From the NCBI RefSeq assembly GCF_013337185.1, contig NZ_SWDE01000004.1, positions 124,001-188,000 on the forward strand: DNA of 64,000 nucleotides, in the 5' to 3' direction. This DNA comes from Serratia proteamaculans (lineage in GTDB: Bacteria; Pseudomonadota; Gammaproteobacteria; Enterobacterales; Enterobacteriaceae). Positions 18,112 to 28,873 of this stretch are shown piece after piece. Every line of letters begins with the position of its first letter. Positions within the stretch are counted from its first letter, which is position 1. Below the pieces are notes generated by a model, which did not search any database, was not told the origin of the DNA, and was given only the letters and a program-made list of their open reading frames with translations. A program made the translations under genes and the position numbers.

Positions 18112-18459
18112 GTGAATGATGGATCTGTTGCGATAGAAAATAGTGAGCAACCCGATGTCAGCCTGGCCGGGACAATCACCGAACAGGTGCTGGCAGGTAT
18201 TACCGAGATGCTAAACGCCGAGGGTATTTATACCAACGCGGTACAGCAACAGATGCTGGAGTCGCATATTCGTGCCATGGTGCTACGCTCAATAACCGGC
18301 GAGCCATTACCGGAAGTCGATAAATCACTGTTTGATGAAATTTCGGCGGAATCAATGCAAATGGCCGAGCGGGTAGTGGGGCAATTTGCCACTTTACCGA
18401 TCGAAGAGGCTTATTTGCTTTCCGTCCATTTTGAAGTGGCGAAAGATAATAACCAATAG
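18112..18459 (+). CDS. Stand-alone PRD domain protein (EF_0829/AHA_3910-like)
   Basis: A 115-residue single PTS-regulation domain with no DNA- or RNA-binding part. It is helical and keeps candidate phospho-acceptor histidines (LESHIRAMV and LLSVHFEVA). A GTG start is preceded by AGGGG. PRDs are normally phosphorylated by HPr or EIIB in antiterminators; a free PRD may relay phosphorylation state within this operon. It is the first gene of a tight operon with the SFCGS, DUF4312, DUF4311 and DUF4310 genes, an arrangement I recall from Enterococcus faecalis EF_0829 and Aeromonas AHA_3910 families. The function is unproven. Confidence 0.85.
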   Translation: MNDGSVAIENSEQPDVSLAGTITEQVLAGITEMLNAEGIYTNAVQQQMLESHIRAMVLRSITGEPLPEVDKSLFDEISAESMQMAERVVGQFATLPIEEAYLLSVHFEVAKDNNQ

Positions 18460-18493
18460 CAGTTAACGAATTAATTTAATCAGGAGAAATACC

Positions 18494-18859
18494 ATGGGTC
18501 AGATTACCGTAGTGATTGGCGATCGTTTGGGTAAAGGTCAGAAAGTGGGTCAGGGCATTGAAAATGCAGGCGGAAAAGCCATTGTGATCCCTGGCGTGGC
18601 GGCGGATATGAAGCTGGGCGACGTAATGAAAGCGGAAGGTGCACAGCTGGGTATTTCTTTCTGCGGCAGCGGCGGTGCAGGGGCCATTACCGCTCAGACC
18701 AAATACGGCTACAAAGCCAAATACGGCATGCGCTCGATTGATGAAGGCGTGACGGCAATTAACGAAGGCTGCACCGTATTAGGCTTCGGTTTTATGGATA
18801 AAGAAGAGCTGGGGCAAAGGCTGGTTGAGGCCTACGTTAAAAAACACGGCAATCCGTAA
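18494..18859 (+). CDS. Glycine-rich SFCGS family protein
   Basis: A 121-residue cytosolic protein. The signature SFCGSGGAGA spans residues ~55-64 and carries a single exposed Cys in a Gly-rich loop, much like the phosphorylated Cys loop of PTS EIIB proteins. The first ~50 residues have an alternating strand-helix pattern (ITVVIGDRLGKG, GKAIVIPGVAADM). It is found with DUF4310-4312 proteins in a conserved operon. An EIIB-like role in substrate phosphorylation during uptake is inference. The TAA stop overlaps the next ATG by one base. Confidence 0.85.
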   Translation: MGQITVVIGDRLGKGQKVGQGIENAGGKAIVIPGVAADMKLGDVMKAEGAQLGISFCGSGGAGAITAQTKYGYKAKYGMRSIDEGVTAINEGCTVLGFGFMDKEELGQRLVEAYVKKHGNP

Positions 18860-19155
18860 TGAAAGAACAATATACAACGTCGGTAAAGGTGGAGGGTAAG
18901 GGCGACAGCAAAGCGAAAGCTTTTGCTTCCGCCTTGGCCAACGTGCAGGGCGCGGTATTAAAATCCACCAGTAATATTCTGCTGCGTATTGAACCGCAGG
19001 ATGTCAGCGTATTAAGAGCGGAAGAGAAAATAACAAAAGAAAAGTTTCTATTCTTCTTTCTGCCGCGCGAAAGAAAGAATTATTCCGTATCTCTGGAAAT
19101 AACCGTGAACGTGACAATCATCAATACAGAAAAAGTTGTCTTCGTCACGAAATAA
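18859..19155 (+). CDS. DUF4312 family protein (EF_0831/AHA_3912-like)
   Basis: A 98-residue alpha/beta protein of unknown function. It starts with a conserved-looking YTTSVKVEGKGDSKAKAFA segment, carries a charged helix around VLRAEEKITKEK, and ends in beta strands (VSLEITVNVTIINTEKVVF). No membrane segment is clear. Its one-base overlap with the SFCGS gene implies coupled translation. It may be a soluble subunit of the putative transporter formed with DUF4311 and DUF4310. Confidence 0.82.
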   Translation: MKEQYTTSVKVEGKGDSKAKAFASALANVQGAVLKSTSNILLRIEPQDVSVLRAEEKITKEKFLFFFLPRERKNYSVSLEITVNVTIINTEKVVFVTK

Positions 19156-19185
19156 AAACGTTAGCATAAATCAAAGGGTATACTG

Positions 19186-19962
19186 ATGTTTTTAATCATC
19201 TTATTTAAGTCGCTTATTATCGGCGGACTGGTGGGGGTTGGCGTAGGGGCCGGCGCCGCACGCATGTTCCATGCCCCAACCACTCAGGGCATGGGCGCTT
19301 TCCGTACCTTGGGCGAGCTGAACTCCTGCGAGGGCGATCCGGCTTCCCATTTCTCATTCGGTCTGGGCTTCTTCTTCAACGCCTGGGCGTCTTCCGTGGC
19401 GGCCGGGGCCTTCACGCAGGACGTTGACCACCGCATCATCCCACACTGGGGGGCGGCAGCGTTGATGGTCAAAAACCGCAACCTGGCGCAAACGCTGCAC
19501 GACCCGAAAAAAATGGCTATCGCCTGCGGCATTATCGGCATGCTGGTGGTGGCTTTCCTCAACACCACCGCTTCTGCAGTGCCTGCTGCGCTGCAGGTCA
19601 CGGCGATTAAAGTGTTGGTGCCGGCAGCTAACCTGCTGGTGAACACCGTGATGCCGGTGATCTTCTGGCTGGCGGCTATCGACGCCGGGCGTCGCTCCGG
19701 TTTCTGGGGCACCATCTTCGGCGGCCTGGCGCAGCTGATCATGGGCAACGCCGTACCGGGTCTGGTGCTGGGTATCCTGATCGGTAAAGGCGTGGAAGAG
19801 AGCGGCTGGAACAAAATCACCAAGATCATGATGGCCGTGATCGTGCTGTTGTTCGTGCTGAGCGGTTTCTTCCGCGGCTTCGACATGAAAGTCCTCGAGT
19901 CCTTCAGCCTCGGCGTGCCGGGCTGGCTGGATGCCATTCACAATACCCTGAGCGGTAAATAA
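19186..19962 (+). CDS. DUF4311 integral membrane protein (EF_0832/AHA_3913-like)
   Basis: A 258-residue polytopic membrane protein, with about seven hydrophobic stretches beginning at residue 3 (LIILFKSLIIGGLVGVGVGAG). A conserved-looking loop GMGAFRTLGELNSCEGDPASHFSFGLGFFFNAWASS contains a Cys and several acidic residues between helices. It has no detectable similarity to classical PTS EIIC that I can see, but the operon context with PRD and EIIB-like partners suggests a transport role. Spacing to DUF4310 is eight bases. Confidence 0.84.
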   Translation: MFLIILFKSLIIGGLVGVGVGAGAARMFHAPTTQGMGAFRTLGELNSCEGDPASHFSFGLGFFFNAWASSVAAGAFTQDVDHRIIPHWGAAALMVKNRNLAQTLHDPKKMAIACGIIGMLVVAFLNTTASAVPAALQVTAIKVLVPAANLLVNTVMPVIFWLAAIDAGRRSGFWGTIFGGLAQLIMGNAVPGLVLGILIGKGVEESGWNKITKIMMAVIVLLFVLSGFFRGFDMKVLESFSLGVPGWLDAIHNTLSGK

Positions 19963-19973
19963 GGAGCTGGATG

Positions 19974-20624
19974 ATGGAAGAACAAACCCAAAAAGGCTTC
20001 TGGTATGCCGACTGGTCATTCCCGATTTTTGTTGGCCTGCTCTCGTCCGGCGTGTTCGCCGGGACGCACATGTACTACCTGTACGGCATCGGTGCCTTTA
20101 ACGAAGTGGCCTTCGTTTCCATGCTGCGGGCTGGAATGGATACCGGCGTTTATGGTGCGGTGGCGGCATTTGGTGCCAGCTTCCTGTTTGCGCGCATCAT
20201 CGAAGGCTCGCTGGTGGGGATCCTGGACATCGGTGGTGCAATCCAGACCGGTGTTGGCCTGGGAGTGCCGGCACTGTTGCTTGGGGCTGGCATTATCTTC
20301 CCGGTTGCCAACTTTGCCGCCTCGCTAATCACCGGCCTGGTGATAGGTCTGGCGATTGGCTACCTGATCATTCTGGCGCGTAAATTTACCATCAATCAGA
20401 GCAACTCCACCTACGGGGCGGACGTGATGATGGGCGCAGGTAACTCCTCCGGTCGTTTCCTGGGGCCGTTGATCATCCTGTCGGCGATGACCGCCTCGAT
20501 TCCGATTGGTATTGGTTCACTGCTCGGCGCACTGCTGTTCTATATCTGGAATAAGCCAATCACTGGCGGGGCGATCCTCGGGGCGATGCTGTTAGGGGCT
20601 ATTTTCCCGGTAGCCATCGCTTAA
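19974..20624 (+). CDS. DUF4310 integral membrane protein (EF_0833/AHA_3914-like)
   Basis: A 216-residue membrane protein with about six helices. It begins with WYADWSFPIFVGLLSSGVFAG and has Gly-rich transmembrane stretches (LDIGGAIQTGVGLGVPALLLGAG). Of two adjacent ATGs (19971 and 19974), the second has the better 7-base spacing from AAGGAG. It probably forms a two-component permease with DUF4311. The hairpin 20642-20663 follows before the catabolic genes, which could lower expression of the distal half of the operon. Confidence 0.84.
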   Translation: MEEQTQKGFWYADWSFPIFVGLLSSGVFAGTHMYYLYGIGAFNEVAFVSMLRAGMDTGVYGAVAAFGASFLFARIIEGSLVGILDIGGAIQTGVGLGVPALLLGAGIIFPVANFAASLITGLVIGLAIGYLIILARKFTINQSNSTYGADVMMGAGNSSGRFLGPLIILSAMTASIPIGIGSLLGALLFYIWNKPITGGAILGAMLLGAIFPVAIA

Positions 20625-20686: not shown

Positions 20687-21826
20687 ATGTATGACTTAGT
20701 AATCAGACGCGCCAGACTGGCGGATGACCGACTGGTCGATTTGGCGGTTCAGGACGGCAAGATTGCCGCGGTCGGGCAACTGGCTGAAGACGTTCGCGCG
20801 CATCGGCTATGGGATCTGGCGGGCAATCACCACCTGAGTGCCGGCTGGATCGACTCCCACGTGCATTGTTACCCCTCTTCGCCGATTTACCATGACGAAC
20901 CGGATTTGGTCGGCACCGCCTGTGGCGTCACCACGGTGGTCGACGCCGGTAGCACCGGCACTGACGATGTAGATACGTTTTATGCACTGACGCGCCGTGC
21001 CAAAACCAACGTTTTTGCCTTCCTGAATATTTCGCGTATCGGTCTGCTGCGACAGAACGAACTGGCAGACCTGGCCGATATCGACAAGCAGAAAGTCGGC
21101 CAGGCAATAAGTGAACACCCGGGCTTTATCATTGGCATCAAGGCGCGCATGAGCAGCAGCGTGGTTGGCCAGAATGGCACCCGGCCGCTGGTGCTTGCCA
21201 AAGAGATCCAACAGGAAAATAACCAATTGCCGTTGATGGTGCATATCGGCAATAACCCACCGGATCTCGATGAGATAGCCGATCTGCTGACCCGTGGCGA
21301 CATTATCACCCACTGCTACAACGGCAAACCAAACCGCATTCTGACCCCGGCGGGCACGCTGCGTGAGTCTATCCAGCGTGCGCTGCAGCGCGGTGTGCTG
21401 CTCGACGTTGGCCACGGCAGTGCCAGCTTCAGCTTTGAGGTCGCCCGGCAGGCGATAGCCTTGGGCATTTTGCCGCATACCATCAGTTCCGATATTTATT
21501 GCCGCAACCGCATGGCCGGGCCGGTACACAGCCTGGCGACGGTGATGTCCAAATTCTTCAGCGTCGGGCTGTCGCTGCCGCAAGTGATCGCCTGCGTGAC
21601 TGAGAATGCCGCGTCGGCGCTACGCCTGGTCAATAAGGGCCGGCTTGAAGTGGGTTGCGACGCCGATTTCACCCTGTTTGATCTCCGCCAGGGGCCGCAG
21701 GTGTTTGCCGATTCAGAAGGGCAATCGGCAGCCGGCCAACAGTTGCTGGTTCCGCTGGCCGCGGTGGTGGCCGGGGAAATCCTATTAACCGATGAAGGGA
21801 AAGCCGCTCATGTCTTCGATTTATGA
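20687..21826 (+). CDS. Amidohydrolase/deacetylase family metallohydrolase (EF_0837/AHA_3915-like)
   Basis: A 379-residue amidohydrolase of the binuclear-metal type. HVH in GWIDSHVHCYP, a Lys likely to be carbamylated in IIGIKARMS, His in LMVHIGNN, His in IITHCYN and Asp in TISSDIY form the expected metal site. The family is annotated as dihydroorotase-like or N-acetyl-sugar deacetylase-like. In this operon, deacylating an amino-sugar acid before the ammonia-lyase step would fit, but the substrate is inferred. It overlaps the next gene by 17 bases. Confidence 0.87.
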   Translation: MYDLVIRRARLADDRLVDLAVQDGKIAAVGQLAEDVRAHRLWDLAGNHHLSAGWIDSHVHCYPSSPIYHDEPDLVGTACGVTTVVDAGSTGTDDVDTFYALTRRAKTNVFAFLNISRIGLLRQNELADLADIDKQKVGQAISEHPGFIIGIKARMSSSVVGQNGTRPLVLAKEIQQENNQLPLMVHIGNNPPDLDEIADLLTRGDIITHCYNGKPNRILTPAGTLRESIQRALQRGVLLDVGHGSASFSFEVARQAIALGILPHTISSDIYCRNRMAGPVHSLATVMSKFFSVGLSLPQVIACVTENAASALRLVNKGRLEVGCDADFTLFDLRQGPQVFADSEGQSAAGQQLLVPLAAVVAGEILLTDEGKAAHVFDL

Positions 21827-22928
21827 AAAATATAATTTAAAACAAGTCATTAATACTTCAGGTCGCATGACCATGCTCGGCGTGTCCACACCGCGTCAGG
21901 ACGTCATTGATGCGGTTGACTATGGCCTGAATCACTATTTTGAAATCAAGGATCTGGTCGACAAGACCGGCGCCTATATCGCCAATCTGTTGAATGTCGA
22001 AGATGCGGTGATCGTTTCCTGTGCCTCGGCAGGCATCGCCCAATCGGTGGCGGCACTGATCGTCAAAGACAACGCCAACCTGCTGGTGAATTTGCACTCT
22101 GCGCCGATTAGCGTACCGCGCGAAATCGTATTGCCGCGTGGCCATAACGTCAACTTCGGCGCGCCGGTCGACACCATGGTGGCGCTGGGTGGCGGCAAAG
22201 TGGTCGAGGCGGGTTATGCCAACGAGTGTTCTGCCGAGCAGCTCGAAGCCTGCATCACGCCGCAGACCGCCGCTATTCTCTATATCAAGTCGCACCACTG
22301 CGTGCAGAAAAGCATTCTTTCCGTTGAACAGGCGGTGGTGGTGGCGCGCAAGCATAGCCTGCCACTGATCGTCGACGCCGCGGCGGAAGAAGATTTGCTG
22401 TGTTACTACCAGATGGGGGCCGACCTGGTGATTTACAGCGGTGCCAAAGCCATCGAAGGCCCAACCAGCGGGTTGGTGATCGGCAAGAAGCAATACGTCG
22501 AGTGGGTGAAGCTGCAATCCGGCGGCATCGGCCGGGCGATGAAAGTGGGCAAAGAGGGCATCCTCGGCCTGACGCAGGCGATCGAAAGCTATCTGACGTT
22601 GGAGAAAACCACCGGTCAGCAAATGGTGGAAAGAATGACGCCGTTTATCGACAGCCTGAACACCCTGACCGGCATCAGCGCCAAAACCGTCTGGGACAGT
22701 GCCGGCCGCGATATTGCGCGGGCAGAGATCACCTTTGACGAAGCGGTGCTCGGACGTTCTACCTACGACATCGTGCAGGCGCTGAAAACCGGCGATATCG
22801 CTATCTACTTCCGCGGCTATAAGGCCAACGAAGGCAAGATTGAAGTGGATGTGCGCAGCGTTGATCAGCAACAGCTGATGACCGTCTTCACCTGTATTAA
22901 AAATCTGTTCACGGAGAAACAAGCATGA
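21810..22928 (+). CDS. DgaE-like PLP-dependent ammonia-lyase (SelA-like fold)
   Basis: A 372-residue PLP enzyme of the SelA/DgaE family. The start VINTSGRMTMLGVS and the segment SGAKAIEGPTSG, with its Schiff-base Lys, are typical. DgaE converts D-glucosaminate 6-phosphate to 2-keto-3-deoxygluconate 6-phosphate and ammonia. The ATG at 21810 is preferred over an in-frame ATG at 21792, because the protein then begins MSSIYEKYNLKQVIN as in relatives. It overlaps the amidohydrolase upstream by 17 bases and the aldolase downstream by four, so the three enzymes are coupled. Confidence 0.88.
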   Translation: MSSIYEKYNLKQVINTSGRMTMLGVSTPRQDVIDAVDYGLNHYFEIKDLVDKTGAYIANLLNVEDAVIVSCASAGIAQSVAALIVKDNANLLVNLHSAPISVPREIVLPRGHNVNFGAPVDTMVALGGGKVVEAGYANECSAEQLEACITPQTAAILYIKSHHCVQKSILSVEQAVVVARKHSLPLIVDAAAEEDLLCYYQMGADLVIYSGAKAIEGPTSGLVIGKKQYVEWVKLQSGGIGRAMKVGKEGILGLTQAIESYLTLEKTTGQQMVERMTPFIDSLNTLTGISAKTVWDSAGRDIARAEITFDEAVLGRSTYDIVQALKTGDIAIYFRGYKANEGKIEVDVRSVDQQQLMTVFTCIKNLFTEKQA

Positions 22929-23665
22929 AGCTGCAACCTAACTACTATCGCGATCGCGTGTGCCTCAACGTCTTGGCCGGCTCGAAAGACAATGCGCAGG
23001 ACATTTATTCGGCGGCGGAAGGGCATGTGCTGGTGGGCGTTCTGTCTAAGAACTACCCGGACGTCGACAGTGCAGTGGCAGACATGCAGCGCTATGCGCG
23101 GCTGATTGAGAATGCGCTGTCGGTGGGATTGGGCGCGGGCGATCCGAAACAGTCGTCGATGGTCAGTCTGATTTCTCAGCAGGTGCAGCCACAGCACGTA
23201 AACCAGGTGTTTACCGGTGTCGGTGCCAGCCGCGCACTGCTGGGCCAAAATGACAGCGTGGTCAATGGCCTGGTGTCACCCACCGGCCGCGTTGGCTGGG
23301 TGAAGATCTCGACCGGCCCGCTGAGTGCTGCGGCACCGGACGGCATTGTGCCGGTGGAAACCGCCATTGCCCTGTTAAAAGATATGGGCGGCAGCTCAAT
23401 CAAATATTTCCCGATGGGCGGGCTGGCGTGCAAAGAAGAATACCAGTATGTGGCCCAAGCCTGCGCAGAACATGACTTTATGCTGGAGCCGACCGGCGGC
23501 ATCGATCTGGAAAATTTCGAGCCGATCGTCGAGATCGCACTGGCTGCGGGTGTGAAACGGGTGATCCCACATATCTACAGCTCCATCATCGATTCTGCCA
23601 CGGGCAACACTCGCCCGCAGGACGTTAAAACCTTGCTGGCAATCACCAAAAAGCTGGTCGGGTAA
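22925..23665 (+). CDS. DgaF-like 2-dehydro-3-deoxy-phosphogluconate aldolase (KDGP aldolase)
   Basis: A 246-residue TIM-barrel aldolase of the KDGP/DUF1341 family (EF_0839/AHA_3917-like). KYFPMGGLACKEE with a candidate Schiff-base Lys and the phosphate-binding loop EPTGGIDLENF are visible. It should split 2-keto-3-deoxygluconate 6-phosphate to pyruvate and glyceraldehyde 3-phosphate, completing the pathway begun by the DgaE-like enzyme. The ATG overlaps the preceding stop (ATGA). It is the last catabolic enzyme in the cluster. Confidence 0.88.
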   Translation: MKLQPNYYRDRVCLNVLAGSKDNAQDIYSAAEGHVLVGVLSKNYPDVDSAVADMQRYARLIENALSVGLGAGDPKQSSMVSLISQQVQPQHVNQVFTGVGASRALLGQNDSVVNGLVSPTGRVGWVKISTGPLSAAAPDGIVPVETAIALLKDMGGSSIKYFPMGGLACKEEYQYVAQACAEHDFMLEPTGGIDLENFEPIVEIALAAGVKRVIPHIYSSIIDSATGNTRPQDVKTLLAITKKLVG

Positions 23666-23757: not shown

Positions 23758-24972
23758 ATGCGAAACTGGCAGTCTCCAACCCTACGCACCGCGTTAACCC
23801 TGGCGCTACTGGCGATGACCAGCCCGGTGCTGCATGCTGAGGATGCTATGAAATCTACGTCATCTCATTTTGCTTATATCGGTACCTACAATCCTAACGG
23901 TGAAGGCGTTTATCGGGTGCAGGTCGACTCGGCCAGCGGTGCGTTGAGCGGTAAAACGCTGGTCAGCAAGCAGGCCAACCCGGCACAGCTCACCGTGGAT
24001 GCCAAAGGCCAGACGCTGTATGTTGCCAGCGAAGTGGCAGATTTTAACGGCACCAAACACGGCGGCATCATCGCTTACCGCATCAATCCATCCGATGGCA
24101 ATCTGACTCAGCTCAATCAGGTCGATTCCCAAGGCGCGGGGCCGGTATATCTTTTTCCGACGCCCAATGGCCGTTATCTGCTGGTAGCGAACTACGTCAG
24201 CGGCACCGTGGCGGCTTTCCCGGTAGAGAGCGACGGTAAACTGGGCAACGCCAGCTCGGTACAGCAACAGCAAGGGCCCGCAGGTGCCGGTAAGCCGGAG
24301 GGCGCGGTAGAAGGCAGTTTTGCCATCAGCGATCACAACGGGCCGCATGCGCATATGATCGCCAGCGATCCGAGCGGCAAGTTTGTGTTTTCTACCGATC
24401 TGGGGCTGGATCGGATCTACCAGTGGCGCTTTGACGATGCCAGTGGCCAACTGACGCCGAACGATCCACCGTGGATCGCTGCATCTTCTGCTGGTGCCGG
24501 CCCGCGTCACTTTGTCTTCCATCCGGACGGCAAAACTGTGCTGCTGGTGAACGAAGAGGCTTCAACGCTGACCAGCTACCGTTTCGACAGCCAAAAAGGG
24601 ACTTTGAAACAGTTACATGTTGTTTCTTCGCTGCCTGCCGATTATAAGGGGACCAACTTTGCTGCCGGGTTGGTTCTGAGCGCAGACGGGAAAAATCTGT
24701 ATGTCGCCAACCGGCTACATAACAGCATTGCGCAGTTCAGCGTCGGCAGCGATGGCGAGTTGCACGCGGTGGCGGAAACCTGGACGCGCGGCGATTATCC
24801 ACGCTCCCTGACGCTAAGCCCGGACGGGCGTTATCTTTATGCCATGAACCAACGCAGCGATAACGTCACCCGTTTTGGCGTGGATAAGGCCAGCGGCAAA
24901 CTCAGCTTTGTTGAAGGCTATACGCCGGTGGGCAGCCCCTCGCAAATGGTGTTCTTGCCGGTGGCGAAGTAA
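23758..24972 (+). CDS. Exported lactonase family protein (6-phosphogluconolactonase-like beta-propeller)
   Basis: A 404-residue protein. A Sec signal peptide (residues ~1-27, TLALLAMTSPVLHA) is followed by a seven-bladed propeller of the Pgl/YbhE lactonase family (FAYIGTYNPNGEGVYRV, SDHNGPHAHMIASDPSG, GAGPRHFVFHPDGK, RSLTLSPDGRYLYAMNQ). The His-rich and Arg-containing loops of lactonases are kept. Unlike cytosolic Pgl it should act in the periplasm. It sits between the aldolase and the regulator, so it may open an aldonolactone before uptake. That role is inferred. Confidence 0.85.
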   Translation: MRNWQSPTLRTALTLALLAMTSPVLHAEDAMKSTSSHFAYIGTYNPNGEGVYRVQVDSASGALSGKTLVSKQANPAQLTVDAKGQTLYVASEVADFNGTKHGGIIAYRINPSDGNLTQLNQVDSQGAGPVYLFPTPNGRYLLVANYVSGTVAAFPVESDGKLGNASSVQQQQGPAGAGKPEGAVEGSFAISDHNGPHAHMIASDPSGKFVFSTDLGLDRIYQWRFDDASGQLTPNDPPWIAASSAGAGPRHFVFHPDGKTVLLVNEEASTLTSYRFDSQKGTLKQLHVVSSLPADYKGTNFAAGLVLSADGKNLYVANRLHNSIAQFSVGSDGELHAVAETWTRGDYPRSLTLSPDGRYLYAMNQRSDNVTRFGVDKASGKLSFVEGYTPVGSPSQMVFLPVAK

Positions 24973-25023: not shown

Positions 25024-26940
25024 ATGGTGCGATTTCCCTACCCGCGTTTGGCCTATCTGTTTGATGCTTTGCAGTCTGAGACTTTGCCACAGGAAGAACT
25101 GGCGAAGCGCTTCGCCGTGTCCACCCGAACCGTGCGTGCCGACATCACCGCGCTGAACGATATTCTGGAAAACTATGGCGCTCACTTTGTGCATAGCCGT
25201 GGGGCGGGTTATCGCCTGCAGGTCGATGACGCCGCGTTGTTTAGCGCCCTGCAGCATCAGGAACGTAAAAAACACGCCACGCCACGCAGCGCCCAGGAGC
25301 GGGTGCACTATCTGCTGATTCGTTTTTTGACCTCAGCCTTTTCTCTGAAGCTTGAAGATTTAGCCGATGAATGGTTTGTCAGCCGCGGCACGCTGCAAAA
25401 CGACATGGCTGAGGTGAGAGAGCGTCTGGCGCACTACCAGTTGACCATTGAAACCAAACCGCGTTACGGCATGAAGCTGTTTGGTTCAGAGATGGCGATC
25501 CGCGCCTGTCTGACCGATCTGTTATTCCAGTTGCATCTGGCCGATGCCGAAAATCCACTGCTCAACAATGAGATCCTGCGGCAACCGCAGGTGGTGACCT
25601 TTGCCGGTTTGCTGCATCCGTTGCTGTCGCAATATGCCATTCGTCTGACGGACGAAGGTGAGCAGTATCTGATTTTCTACTGTGCAGTGGCGCTGCGACG
25701 CATTACCGATGGTTATCCGCTGCCGGACTTTGACGTTGAGGACGGGGATGACGCGGTGCGCAAGGTGTCGACCTGGCTGGCCGGGGAACTGCGCAAAGCC
25801 AGTGGCAAAGAGATATCGATAGCGGAAGAGGCCTACCTGCGGGTGAACATCGCCGCGCGGCGGGTGCAGGAGGTGCAACCGACCGAGATCAACGCCGACG
25901 ATGAAGAAGCGCTGGTGGATTACATTCTGTCGTATATCAACGCGCACTATAACTACAATCTGCAGGGCGACAAGCAGCTGCGCGCCGATCTGCTGACCCA
26001 TATCAAGACCATGATCACCCGGGTGAAATACCAGATTAATATCCCCAACCCGTTGCTGGCGAACATTAAACAGCACTATCCGATGGCCTATGACGTGACG
26101 CTGGCCGCGGTCTCCAGTTGGGGAAAATACACGCCTTATACCCTGAGTGAAAACGAGATTGGTTATCTGGTACTGCACATTGGCGTTGGGCTGGAGCGGC
26201 ATTACAACATCGGCTATGAGCGACATCCGCAGGTGATGCTGGTGTGCGATACCGGTAACTCGACGGTGCGGATGATCCAGGCGCAGATCGCGCGCAAATA
26301 TCCGCAGTTGGTGATGACGCGTATCGTTTCACTGCGTGATTACGAGGTGCTCAACCATATCGACGAAGACTTCGTTATTTCCAATGCGCGGGTCAGCGAA
26401 AAGAACAAGCCGGTGGTGGTGATGTCGCCGTTCCCGACCGAATACCAGCTCGAACAGCTTGGCAAACTGGTGCTGGTGGATCGCACCAAGCCCTATATGC
26501 TGGAGAAGTTCTTCGACGCCGAGCATTTTATGTTGGTCAACGAGCCGCTGACCCAGGCGGAATTATTCCAGCAGGTGTGCAGCCAGCTTGAGCAAGAAGG
26601 CTATGTTGGCGAAGATTTTTACCCTTCAGTGGTGGAGCGCGAGGCGATTGTTTCTACCCTGCTGGGCGAAGGGATCGCATTGCCGCACTCGCTGGGGTTG
26701 CTGGCGAAGAAAACCGTAGTGGTGACGCTGCTGGCGCCGCGGGGGGTGGTCTGGGGTGAAGGTGAAATTGCTCACGTGATTTTCCTGCTGGCAATCAGCA
26801 AGAGCGATTACGAAGAGGCGATGGCAATCTACGATCTGTTCGTCACCTTTGTGCGCGAACGTTCGATGACTCGTCTGTTGGGCAGTGACAATTTCGACAG
26901 CTTCAAGGCGGTGGCGCTGGACTGTTTAAGCCGGATCTAG
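25024..26940 (+). CDS. PRD-containing PTS-controlled transcriptional regulator (BglG/MtlR/LicR type)
   Basis: A 638-residue multidomain regulator. An N-terminal HTH (QEELAKRFAVSTRTVRADI) and second HTH-like part (DEWFVSRGTLQNDMAEV) are followed by two PRDs (residues ~190-400, including VLHIGVGLERH), an EIIB-like domain (VMLVCDTGNSTVRMI, with the Cys) and a C-terminal EIIA-like domain (GIALPHSLG, with the active-site His). Phosphorylation by HPr and by a specific EII adjusts such activators. It most likely switches the preceding operon according to transporter activity. Here the EIIB and EIIA Cys/His residues are both retained. Confidence 0.9.
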   Translation: MVRFPYPRLAYLFDALQSETLPQEELAKRFAVSTRTVRADITALNDILENYGAHFVHSRGAGYRLQVDDAALFSALQHQERKKHATPRSAQERVHYLLIRFLTSAFSLKLEDLADEWFVSRGTLQNDMAEVRERLAHYQLTIETKPRYGMKLFGSEMAIRACLTDLLFQLHLADAENPLLNNEILRQPQVVTFAGLLHPLLSQYAIRLTDEGEQYLIFYCAVALRRITDGYPLPDFDVEDGDDAVRKVSTWLAGELRKASGKEISIAEEAYLRVNIAARRVQEVQPTEINADDEEALVDYILSYINAHYNYNLQGDKQLRADLLTHIKTMITRVKYQINIPNPLLANIKQHYPMAYDVTLAAVSSWGKYTPYTLSENEIGYLVLHIGVGLERHYNIGYERHPQVMLVCDTGNSTVRMIQAQIARKYPQLVMTRIVSLRDYEVLNHIDEDFVISNARVSEKNKPVVVMSPFPTEYQLEQLGKLVLVDRTKPYMLEKFFDAEHFMLVNEPLTQAELFQQVCSQLEQEGYVGEDFYPSVVEREAIVSTLLGEGIALPHSLGLLAKKTVVVTLLAPRGVVWGEGEIAHVIFLLAISKSDYEEAMAIYDLFVTFVRERSMTRLLGSDNFDSFKAVALDCLSRI

Positions 26941-26993: not shown

Positions 26994-27266
26994 CTAGTCT
27001 TCGTCAAAACCTGAATTGATCAACTCAATGACCGCCGCCAGTGCTTTCGCTTCATCCGGGCCGGTGGCTTCCACTTCGATATGACGACCCTGCGCGGAGT
27101 CCAGCATCAGCAGCGCAATCACGCTGCTGGCTTCGGCCTCGGTGCCGCTGTCGTTGCGTAGCATCACCTCGGCATCAAAGCTCTGCACCAGCTCAAACAG
27201 CTTCATCGCCGGGCGTGCGTGCATGCCCAGCTTGTTTTTGATTTCAACCGTTTGTTTGACCGTCAT
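26994..27266 (-). CDS. npr: NPr, HPr-like phosphocarrier of the nitrogen PTS
   Basis: A 90-residue HPr-family protein with phosphorylatable His in [12 protein letters not shown] and [14 protein letters not shown] around the regulatory Ser-46-like site. NPr passes phosphate from EI-Ntr (PtsP) to EIIA-Ntr (PtsN), whose gene is two positions upstream. The ATG overlaps the rapZ stop by four bases. Normal length and order for an enterobacterial rpoN operon. Confidence 0.96.
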
Positions 27267-28117
27267 TGTTTGCGTTTTTCCAGCGTGCGGTGGCGTGACT
27301 GCACGTTTTTGCCGCGTGAGCGGAAGTAGTCGGCCAACTGTTCTGCCACGTAGACTGAACGGTGCTTACCGCCGGTACAGCCAATGGCGACCGTCAGGTA
27401 GCTGCGGTTGTTGGTTTCCAGCATCGGCAACCACTGTTCGAGATAGCTGCGGGTCTGGTAGATAAAGTTGTGCACTTCAGTGTGGCGATCGAGGAACGAG
27501 GCGACGGGTTTATCCAGGCCGGTCATCGGACGCAGTTTCGGATCCCAGTGCGGGTTAGGCAGGAAGCGTACGTCGAACACGTAGTCGGCGTCGATTGGGA
27601 TACCGTGCTTAAAGCCGAAGGATTCGAACACCATGGTCAGCTCGCGCTCGCGTTTGCCCAACAGGCGGGTACGCAGCATTTCGGCCAGCTCATGCACTGA
27701 CATTTCCGAGGTATCGATGATCAGATCGGCCCTGGAGCGCAGTGGCTCAAGCAGGTCGCTCTCTTCATCGATGGCGCTTTCCAGCGACAGGTTCTTGCTC
27801 GATAGCGGGTGCAGACGGCGAGTATCACTGTAGCGGCGGATCAGCGTATTACGGTCGGCATCGAGGAACAGCAACTGCGGCGAAAAGCTGTCCGGCAGTT
27901 GGGTCATCGCATATTCAAACACTTCCGGCGATTCCGGCATGTTACGTACGTCGATGCTTACCGCAGCGGAGCTATTGCGTTCCGCCAGCGTATTGGCAAG
28001 CTGCGGCAGCAGTACCACGGGCAGGTTATCAACGCAGTAAAAACCCATGTCTTCCAGCGCCCGCAAGGCGACGGATTTCCCTGAACCGGAACGGCCGCTG
28101 ACAATCATCAGCACCAT
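27263..28117 (-). CDS. rapZ: RapZ, RNase adaptor and GlmZ/GlmY-binding protein
   Basis: A 284-residue protein with the N-terminal Walker [20 protein letters not shown], and a C-terminal RNA-binding part ([28 protein letters not shown]). RapZ senses glucosamine 6-phosphate and guides RNase E to cut the sRNA GlmZ, controlling glmS and hence amino-sugar supply for the envelope. It lies between ptsN and npr, as in E. coli. Confidence 0.97.
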
Positions 28118-28248
28118 GTGGCAACTCCCCCTGGCATCTCAGTGGCGTTTATCGCCACCGTTAGAAACTTTAGGATCCCTGTCCGAACCGGGACCCATCG
28201 TGGCTAAACAGTATCGTTATCCGGGCTGGAAGTCACGCCAGCCGGGCG

Positions 28249-28710
28249 TTACTCGGTGATGATTTGGTAAAGCTCTTCGTCACTTTGCGCCGCACGCAGG
28301 CGGCGGCATACGGTTTTGTCGGCCAGGCGCTTGGCGACCAGCGACAGAGTATGCAAATGAGTTTTACATTGGTCGGCCGGTACCAGTAAGGCAAACAGCA
28401 GATCGACCGGCTGGTTATCAATGGCGTCAAAGGCGATAGGTTGGTCGAGACGGATAAACACGCCAACGGCCCGCAGTGTGTCCTCTTCCAGTTTGCCGTG
28501 GGGAATAGCGATACCATTGCCGATACCGGTACTGCCCATGCGCTCGCGGGTGAGAACCGCGTCAAACACCACCTGTGATGACAGGTTGAGCTGTTTTGCG
28601 GCCAGTTCGCTGATAATTTCCAAAGCCCGTTTCTTGCTGGTGCAATGGACGGAGCTTCTGGTGCACTCGATGTTTAACACCGAGCTTAATTGCATTGTTT
28701 CGTTGTTCAT
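28249..28710 (-). CDS. ptsN: PtsN, EIIA-Ntr of the nitrogen PTS
   Basis: A 153-residue EIIA of the fructose/mannitol type. The active-site His lies in GIAIPHGKLEEDTLRAVGVF. It regulates potassium transport and related functions. The ATG at 28710 follows GAAGATGAG and gives the family N-terminus (MNNETMQLSSVLN); a further in-frame extension to 28806 is rejected. It lacks the short C-terminal tail of the E. coli protein (ends YQIITE), which is normal variation. Confidence 0.96.
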   Translation of the reverse strand: MNNETMQLSSVLNIECTRSSVHCTSKKRALEIISELAAKQLNLSSQVVFDAVLTRERMGSTGIGNGIAIPHGKLEEDTLRAVGVFIRLDQPIAFDAIDNQPVDLLFALLVPADQCKTHLHTLSLVAKRLADKTVCRRLRAAQSDEELYQIITE

Positions 28711-28873
28711 CTCATCTTCACTTAAAACCACACCAGCAAGCAGGAGGCTTGTGAGGTGATTTTTCGCCTTGTTTAACCCTTGATGGCTTATCGGCGCGAT
28801 ACCCATACAGGTAACGCGCCGATGGCCGAGGCTACGTTTGAGCCGTACCCGCTGACGGAAACGGCCCAGAATG

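Follow-up and report, generated by a model that had tools for sequence, protein, structure and literature searches.

A conserved five-gene module of Serratia proteamaculans as a candidate phosphorylating transporter of an amino-sugar acid pathway

In this work we describe a group of five genes lying in a 64,000-nucleotide stretch of the Serratia proteamaculans genome (contig NZ_SWDE01000004.1, positions 124,001 to 188,000; hereafter the window, with positions counted from its first letter), and the operon to which they belong; the host genome measures 5.28 Mb. All five genes are on the + strand. The first, at 18112..18459 and starting with GTG, encodes a stand-alone PRD protein (TIGR03582, EF_0829 family), a candidate histidine phosphocarrier through H52 and H106. 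It is followed at 18494..18859 by the SFCGS protein (PF14272, TIGR03577), which contains a RpiB/LacAB-related domain and is a candidate cysteine phosphocarrier through C57. The third gene, at 18859..19155, encodes DUF4312 (TIGR03578), a small protein with neither His nor Cys and with no strongly hydrophobic stretch, whose start codon overlaps the SFCGS stop codon. DUF4311 (19186..19962, TIGR03580) and DUF4310 (19971..20624, TIGR03579) both feature several strongly hydrophobic stretches and are candidate permease subunits. The gaps separating the five genes are, in order, 34, -1, 30 and 8 nucleotides.

All five proteins score above cut-off in NCBIfam families whose names derive from genes of E. 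faecalis and Aeromonas: 128 bits against a cut-off of 69 for the PRD protein, 220 against 141 for SFCGS, 128 against 90 for DUF4312, 501 against 301 for DUF4311 and 395 against 215 for DUF4310; four of them also reach the Pfam families PF14272, PF14189, PF14188 and PF14187. A first-pass annotation, based on the letters of the window, had described a tightly spaced set of these five open reading frames (ORFs), had likened it to an Enterococcus/Aeromonas set and had pointed to Cys57 of SFCGS; coordinates and families bear out the first two statements, and the position of the cysteine is correct. The five genes were thus well placed, while the cluster proved longer than proposed, since the operon does not end at 20624 and runs on to 26940.

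Downstream of the module, an amidohydrolase, a DgaE-type lyase, a DgaF-type aldolase, a lactonase and a regulator follow in this order, the largest gap being 92 nucleotides. The amidohydrolase/deacetylase (20687..21826, + strand) belongs to TIGR03583, the EF_0837 family, and suggests an N-acyl form of the substrate. The DgaE-type pyridoxal phosphate (PLP) ammonia lyase (21792..22928, + strand) reaches the subfamily model TIGR01437 with 591 against 385 bits; its first ATG overlaps the upstream gene, and translation more likely begins at the ATG at 21810. Numbering from the first ATG and leaving the partial row L019 out of the count, His169 and the PLP-motif Lys219 are kept in 137 of 137 distinct sequences, and His168 in 135. 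By motif, His169 corresponds to His-163 of the Salmonella enzyme, for which residue roles are given in passages of PMC9529869. The DgaF-type aldolase (22925..23665, + strand; TIGR03581) passes the KDGP aldolase equivalog NF047796 with 389.7 bits against a cut-off of 300, which fits a phosphorylated substrate. Taken together, these enzymes suggest as substrate a 2-amino sugar acid that is converted to 2-keto-3-deoxygluconate 6-phosphate (KDG-6-phosphate). A Pfam scan of the ten operon proteins revealed no kinase.

A species-level genome scan identified 495 encoded relatives of DUF4311; only the best 80 loci were taken, so that this set is biased towards close relatives. In 78 of these 80 loci of other genomes the complete set of five was detected, and the genes are therefore not grouped by chance; as to the two exceptions, L046 is cut by a contig end and L047 has no detected DUF4312. 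S. grimesii, S. proteamaculans and two further loci encode a DUF4311 protein 100% identical to that of the window. In loci that are long enough, the recurrent order is PRD, SFCGS, DUF4312, DUF4311, DUF4310, amidohydrolase, DgaE, DgaF and regulator, the exceptions including L070 and L019. In the latter (Serratia rubidaea NCTC12971, 9823-15898), DUF4310, DgaE, DgaF, the lactonase and the regulator are each matched in pieces, in split frames, which looks like a sequencing error in the record, or decay.

For residue conservation, the 80 loci were pooled with 47 further enterobacterial and four plasmid loci, and distinct sequences were counted, leaving out the window's own loci (L001 and L002) and the partial rows L218 for DUF4311, and L004 and L019 for DUF4310. 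H52, R59, E99 and H106 of the PRD protein do not vary in any of 122 distinct sequences, nor does C57 of SFCGS in any of 107; the E. faecalis (L084) and Bartonella (L083) rows are among those keeping these residues.

The module and the aldolase are closely associated also at the genome level. Of 295 genomes sampled within the host's family, 141 contain SFCGS (PF14272) and 141 contain KDGP_aldolase (PF07071), one of the latter by a sub-cut-off match; the two occur together in 140 genomes, the aldolase being thus found in 140 of the 141 genomes with SFCGS. Genome G880 has the only sub-cut-off aldolase match and no SFCGS, while G768 has SFCGS and no aldolase. The G768 operon (L235, 6529-7886) looks like a deletion remnant, because the search recovered only PRD, SFCGS, DUF4312 and part of the regulator, and nothing from DUF4311 to DgaF. 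Searching 398 genomes of the phylum for members produced 12 positives, all within the host's own family, and the window's genome was the sole positive in a DUF4311 search over 229 genomes of the class.

What may replace the module was seen by comparing 60 enterobacterial aldolase loci, 13 of them lower-scoring second copies and 47 higher-scoring ones, picked by hand among the matches listed and not at random. In 13 of the 60, DgaE and DgaF are preceded by the four subunits of a mannose-family permease of the phosphotransferase system (PTS), in the order EIIA-EIIB-EIIC-EIID-DgaE-DgaF, and neither module genes nor the amidohydrolase were detected there. The other 47 carry PRD, SFCGS, DUF4312, DUF4311 and DUF4310 along with DgaE and DgaF, the amidohydrolase being detected in 46; none of them has a mannose-type EII gene before DgaF (L202 has such genes past the regulator). 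From the first transport gene to DgaF, every gap in the 60 loci, measured on the longest ORFs, is of 250 nucleotides or less. No PfkB-type kinase was found in any of them, this being the kinase family sought.

A wider range of arrangements emerged from a plasmid collection, in which 14 records with a KDGP aldolase lie outside the enterobacteria and the surroundings were viewed in nine. On a L. paracasei plasmid the enzymes are accompanied by EIIABCD and no kinase, while on a Priestia plasmid they are found with a gluconate:H+ symporter and a sugar kinase, the latter adjoining the aldolase. C. difficile has the enzymes together with EIIA/B/C, MupG and a kinase, and Niallia has them along with EIIC, MupG and a kinase; in Klebsiella and two Bartonella plasmids the module alone accompanies them, and in Alicyclobacillus a distant aldolase, with no DgaE, lies beside an ABC transporter. 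Behind the operon, both Bartonella plasmids encode a 671-residue protein composed of HPr and, after it, the three EI domains (domains scanned in one copy). The operon of the E. faecalis plasmid (L084, 6013-17335) consists of a regulator devoid of an EIIA domain, the module, PTS_EIIC, a 99-residue protein with no Pfam match, MupG, the amidohydrolase, DgaE, DgaF (in two ORFs) and a PfkB kinase. Because the symporter is paired with a kinase, while both kinase-free classes have either EIIABCD or the module, the module is most simply read as doing the job of EIIABCD, namely import plus phosphorylation.

On balance we consider it somewhat probable that the five genes encode a PTS permease of new make-up, which imports and phosphorylates the substrate of an amino-sugar acid pathway. 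A divergent PTS-type uptake system had already been proposed in the first-pass annotation; this proposal is sustained by the shared slot with EIIABCD, by the lack of a kinase in the operon and of PfkB in the 60 loci and by the Bartonella HPr-EI protein, while the EIIB-like cysteine loop of SFCGS, on which it also leaned, was not upheld. In such a system, phosphate would flow from phosphoenolpyruvate to EI and HPr, from HPr to a histidine carrier, either the stand-alone PRD protein or the EIIA domain of the regulator, and from this to Cys57 in the RpiB-type domain of SFCGS. DUF4311 and DUF4310, joined by DUF4312 at the periphery, would move the substrate through the inner membrane, with phosphorylation taking place there. 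The amidohydrolase would afterwards remove the N-acyl group, the DgaE-type lyase would release ammonia, yielding KDG-6-phosphate, which the DgaF-type aldolase would split into pyruvate and glyceraldehyde-3-phosphate; where a periplasmic lactonase is present, the lactone form would be opened first. In this scheme we infer the phosphotransfer steps, the transport, the roles of the PRD protein and of DUF4312 and the substrate, the last being a guess drawn from the enzymes. A more specific version, to be regarded as tentative and rather doubtful, is that the permease is unrelated to known EII classes, with PRD as EIIA-type carrier, the RpiB/LacAB fold as EIIB-type cysteine carrier and DUF4311/DUF4310 as a new membrane pair. 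If this were true, PRDs would carry phosphate for transport, beyond regulation, and the cysteine loop of an isomerase could evolve into a phosphocarrier.

Several observations weigh against a PTS permease. In profile comparison, DUF4311 and DUF4310 score at most 6.2% against ManY, ManZ, GutA and GutE, and none of the five module proteins matches a Pfam EIIA, EIIB or EIIC family at an E-value of 1, the EIIC part being the one that speaks against this reading. SFCGS resembles an isomerase family and not EIIB, and DgaE stays below the cut-off of the D-glucosaminate-6-phosphate lyase equivalog (369.4 against 600 bits). All 13 genomes with a mannose-type locus hold SFCGS too, and because of this coexistence the module and the EIIABCD systems probably serve different substrates. 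Three MupG-type operons, that of E. faecalis with the module and those of C. difficile and Niallia without it, combine a PTS EIIC with a kinase, and the absence of a kinase is therefore no rule for PTS operons; in this class, PTS and kinase together are taken to serve a second sugar unit. Moreover, a kdgK gene elsewhere in the genome could supply the phosphate. As for Bartonella, the two HPr-EI copies are 99.7% identical and hence represent one event, and a chromosomal EI fusion, matching HPr-EI with an E-value of 1e-104 or better, is present in 58 of 71 presumed Bartonella genomes.

These chromosomal matches are near full-length and mostly lie in open frames of about 837-863 amino acids; one such fusion, viewed by eye (L165), is an EIIA-HPr-EI protein adjoining a PfkB-type kinase ORF. 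Their frequency led us to reject the initial expectation that the plasmid-borne HPr-EI rescues a host devoid of PTS. Since the chromosomal fusion is common and SFCGS was found in none of the 71 genomes of the presumed genus, the plasmid protein is better viewed as an addition travelling with the module. A comparable arrangement is found among plasmid-borne glucitol PTS loci of alphaproteobacteria: in three of three (L124, L125 and L126, out of ten glucitol loci) ptsP follows, starting with a HPr-like stretch as judged by eye, the fetched stretches ending inside ptsP. Should the module be a PTS permease, the Bartonella operon, which unites EI, HPr, module and enzymes within a single stretch, would offer an almost complete set for reconstitution.

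The two membrane proteins leave room for a different transport mechanism. A kinship of DUF4311 and DUF4310 with each other, with GutA/GutE or with ManY/ManZ was considered and rejected, nothing exceeding 6.2%; further EIIC classes were compared via Pfam alone. Distinct EIIC classes are blind to each other in the profile test, as ManY scores 0.2% against GutA. Comparison by profile with solved structures gave nothing of use for either protein, and AlphaFold models had a predicted local distance difference test (pLDDT) score of 47.9 for DUF4311, with 62 close sequences, and of 47.5 for DUF4310, with 68, making them unusable for fold comparison, probably because diverse relatives are lacking in the alignments. 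Sub-cut-off matches were recorded in two control genomes, for the SFCGS profile in Lactococcus lactis and for the DUF4311 profile in Escherichia coli; the latter could be a lead to the DUF4311 fold. With no likeness to EIIC, DUF4311, DUF4310 and DUF4312 might form an ion-driven secondary transporter, phosphorylation being due to a kinase encoded elsewhere, such as KdgK acting on KDG, with PRD and regulator merely tying expression to the state of the PTS. KdgK is common in enterobacteria, and the Priestia plasmid, where the same enzymes are paired with a gluconate:H+ symporter and a kinase, provides a precedent. In that plasmid, however, the kinase adjoins the aldolase, whereas the 60 enterobacterial loci have neither a PfkB kinase ahead of DgaF nor space to accommodate it; moreover, the Bartonella HPr-EI protein would be explained only as an input to the regulator. 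We consider this alternative unlikely.

The SFCGS protein was the object of a separate comparison. Residues 40-116 score 85.3%, with an E-value of 5.9e-6, against a profile of eight RpiB/LacAB proteins, and 78.7% with a larger set, while 60 column-shuffled versions give at most 1.7% and a reversed one 0.1%. E. coli and plasmids served as the source of the RpiB sequences, a collection by PF02502 having found one genome in 56. The relation is distant and emerges from profile comparison, SFCGS having no PF02502 match at an E-value of 1; the first 39 residues fall outside the alignment. By profile, four solved structures matched SFCGS with E-values of 0.5-1.2, and correspond to two RpiB proteins, one nitrogenase and one fusion glycoprotein. 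Kinship with the glucitol EIIB (GutE), prompted by the Cys and Gly pattern, was rejected at 0.1%, as were PTS_IIB (1.6-2.3%) and ManX EIIB (0.5-1.0%); other EIIB classes were compared via Pfam at an E-value of 1 alone. The EIIB-like cysteine loop reported in the first-pass annotation thus gives way to an isomerase-like one, with 79-85% for RpiB/LacAB against 0.1-2.3% for three EIIB-bearing profiles. RpiB itself scores 42.9% against PTS_IIB, which may explain why the SFCGS loop looked EIIB-like.

In the alignment, C57 of the CGSG loop falls on the catalytic Cys of RpiB and S59 on the Thr of CGTG, while Asn90 occupies the position of the ring-opening His (H99 in E. coli) and the protein ends before the C-terminal Arg/His stretch that binds phosphate; the roles of these RpiB residues (catalytic Cys, ring-opening His, phosphate-binding Arg) are those given in passages of PMC4783025 and PMC3755991. 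This picture is compatible with SFCGS being a sugar-phosphate isomerase of the RpiB/LacAB kind, or a related cysteine enzyme of the pathway, and no phosphocarrier, whether or not the transporter is of the PTS type. The high profile scores and the placement of C57 on the catalytic cysteine favour such a role, as do two sub-cut-off PF14272 matches in enterobacterial genomes (E-values of 4.1e-4 and 9.4e-4), which are RpiB-pattern proteins of 147 residues each, and the ribose-5-phosphate isomerase model TIGR02133, matching SFCGS with an E-value of 0.0059, far under its cut-off. The replaced His and the missing Arg/His stretch, on the other hand, argue against catalysis, and the route from an aldonic acid to KDG-6-phosphate would need no aldose-ketose isomerase. 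In addition, the SFCGS gene overlaps that of DUF4312 by one base and is missing from all 13 mannose-type loci. We regard an isomerase or related cysteine enzyme as quite unlikely; a loop whose backbone amides hold a cysteine, in a protein that has lost the isomerase His, would rather meet the needs of a cysteine phosphocarrier.

For the phosphorylating transporter that we favour, two candidate histidine carriers are available in Gram-negative operons: H52/H106 of the PRD protein and H555 in the EIIA domain of the regulator. Against the cut-off of 23 bits of the Pfam family PF00874, the PRD protein scores 13.9 in the window, 24.5 in Bartonella and 34.9 in E. faecalis. The regulator gene (25024..26940, + strand) encodes a protein with the MtlR layout, comprising HTH_11, Mga and PRD domains, an EIIB-like stretch recognized by eye (C408) and PTS_EIIA_2, the last matched with 65.6 bits; the earlier statement that no classical EIIA or EIIB is present is hence true of the five genes, and does not extend to this regulator. 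Leaving out rows L019 and L070 as short, His326, His385 and C408 are kept in 81 of 81 distinct sequences, and H555 in 80. No NCBIfam regulator model was matched above cut-off. According to passages of PMC8560693, the order of domains (HTH, PRD, EIIB-like, EIIA) is that of MtlR-type regulators, and in PRDs histidines of the kind of H52 and H106 are phosphorylated by EI/HPr or EIIB. The domain make-up fits a reading of the phosphorylation state by the regulator, as proposed in the first-pass annotation. In E. faecalis the regulator comes first in the operon and has no EIIA domain, while the stand-alone PRD protein keeps both histidines. As the sole candidate within module and regulator that is common to Gram-negative and E. 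faecalis operons, the PRD protein is the more likely phosphate donor to SFCGS, although the EIIA of another system could also act. That the whole module is a sensor complex, the membrane proteins detecting a signal and PRD and SFCGS setting the state of the regulator, as the presence of PRD and PRD/EIIA regulator in one operon might suggest, is highly improbable, since the operon would be left with no transporter, whereas sister operons have EIIABCD in that place.

Among the remaining features, the lactonase (23758..24972, + strand; PF10282) has an apparent signal peptide, judged by eye, and may open a lactone form of the substrate in the periplasm. It scores 144 of the 370 bits required by the 6-phosphogluconolactonase model PRK11028, far under the cut-off, and is optional, being missing in many relatives. 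Back to back with the regulator, on the - strand at 26994-28806, lie three genes that we take, by sequence likeness, to be npr, rapZ and ptsN of the PTS-Ntr set. Weak HPr-like matches on the opposite strand were noticed close to the module in five of the 60 fetched loci (L212, L216, L218, L225 and L227). An Rfam search gave no matches, promoter-like sites occurred at chance level, and terminator-like sites were not used as evidence.

The five genes occur in many bacteria of gut and plants, and all five families still carry DUF, hypothetical or domain names only in Pfam and NCBIfam. We found no paper naming DUF4310, DUF4311, DUF4312, or SFCGS in the present sense, nor a functional study of the five genes, and no literature on stand-alone PRD proteins that we could recognize as dealing with the TIGR03582 family. 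The STM44xx genes presumably represent this operon. Scattered mentions include STM4441-2, listed with crp as its regulator among the genes that are up in a permissive community (PMC11000858), a sensor inserted in STM4442 (PMC3420936), STM4445 named as a metal-dependent hydrolase (PMC7432712) and a KDGP aldolase gene listed in Pantoea (PMC10882544). In Enterococcus, ef0834 is among the NagY target genes (PMC12502629), and the promoter of ef_0839 or ef_2975 is induced in urine (PMC2912369). A PTS permease at this locus would imply an EII class unrelated to those compared, a transport role for a PRD and an uptake route for an amino-sugar acid.

As to known systems, the regulator shares with MtlR-type PRD regulators the HTH, PRD, EIIB-like and EIIA layout and has conserved His and Cys; the window adds a stand-alone PRD protein with no DNA- or RNA-binding domain recognized by Pfam and NCBIfam scans. 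RpiB/LacAB isomerases (PF02502) align with SFCGS over residues 40-117 and have in common with it the Cys in a CG[ST]G loop, whereas SFCGS is devoid of the ring-opening His and of the C-terminal Arg stretch, and is encoded within a block of transporter genes. The glucitol PTS (GutA, GutE, GutB) is alike in having several small subunits and, as with the Bartonella module, ptsP behind the operon; in contrast, no profile relation above 0.8% links it to any of the five proteins. The D-glucosaminate PTS operon dgaABCDEF of Salmonella, reportedly the work of Miller et al. in 2013, similarly has a DgaE-type lyase and a DgaF-type KDGP aldolase behind a transporter, and the 13 enterobacterial loci of dga layout are likewise free of a PfkB kinase. 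There, however, the transporter is a mannose-family EIIABCD, the amidohydrolase is absent from all 13 dga-type loci, and the window DgaE misses the equivalog. A further likeness is to the EF_0829-EF_0839 / AHA_3910-3917 cluster, described by the hypothetical equivalogs TIGR03577-TIGR03583: the families are the same and all are above cut-off in the window. The E. faecalis plasmid copy keeps the same five-gene order, while adding PTS_EIIC, MupG and a PfkB kinase and lacking the lactonase.

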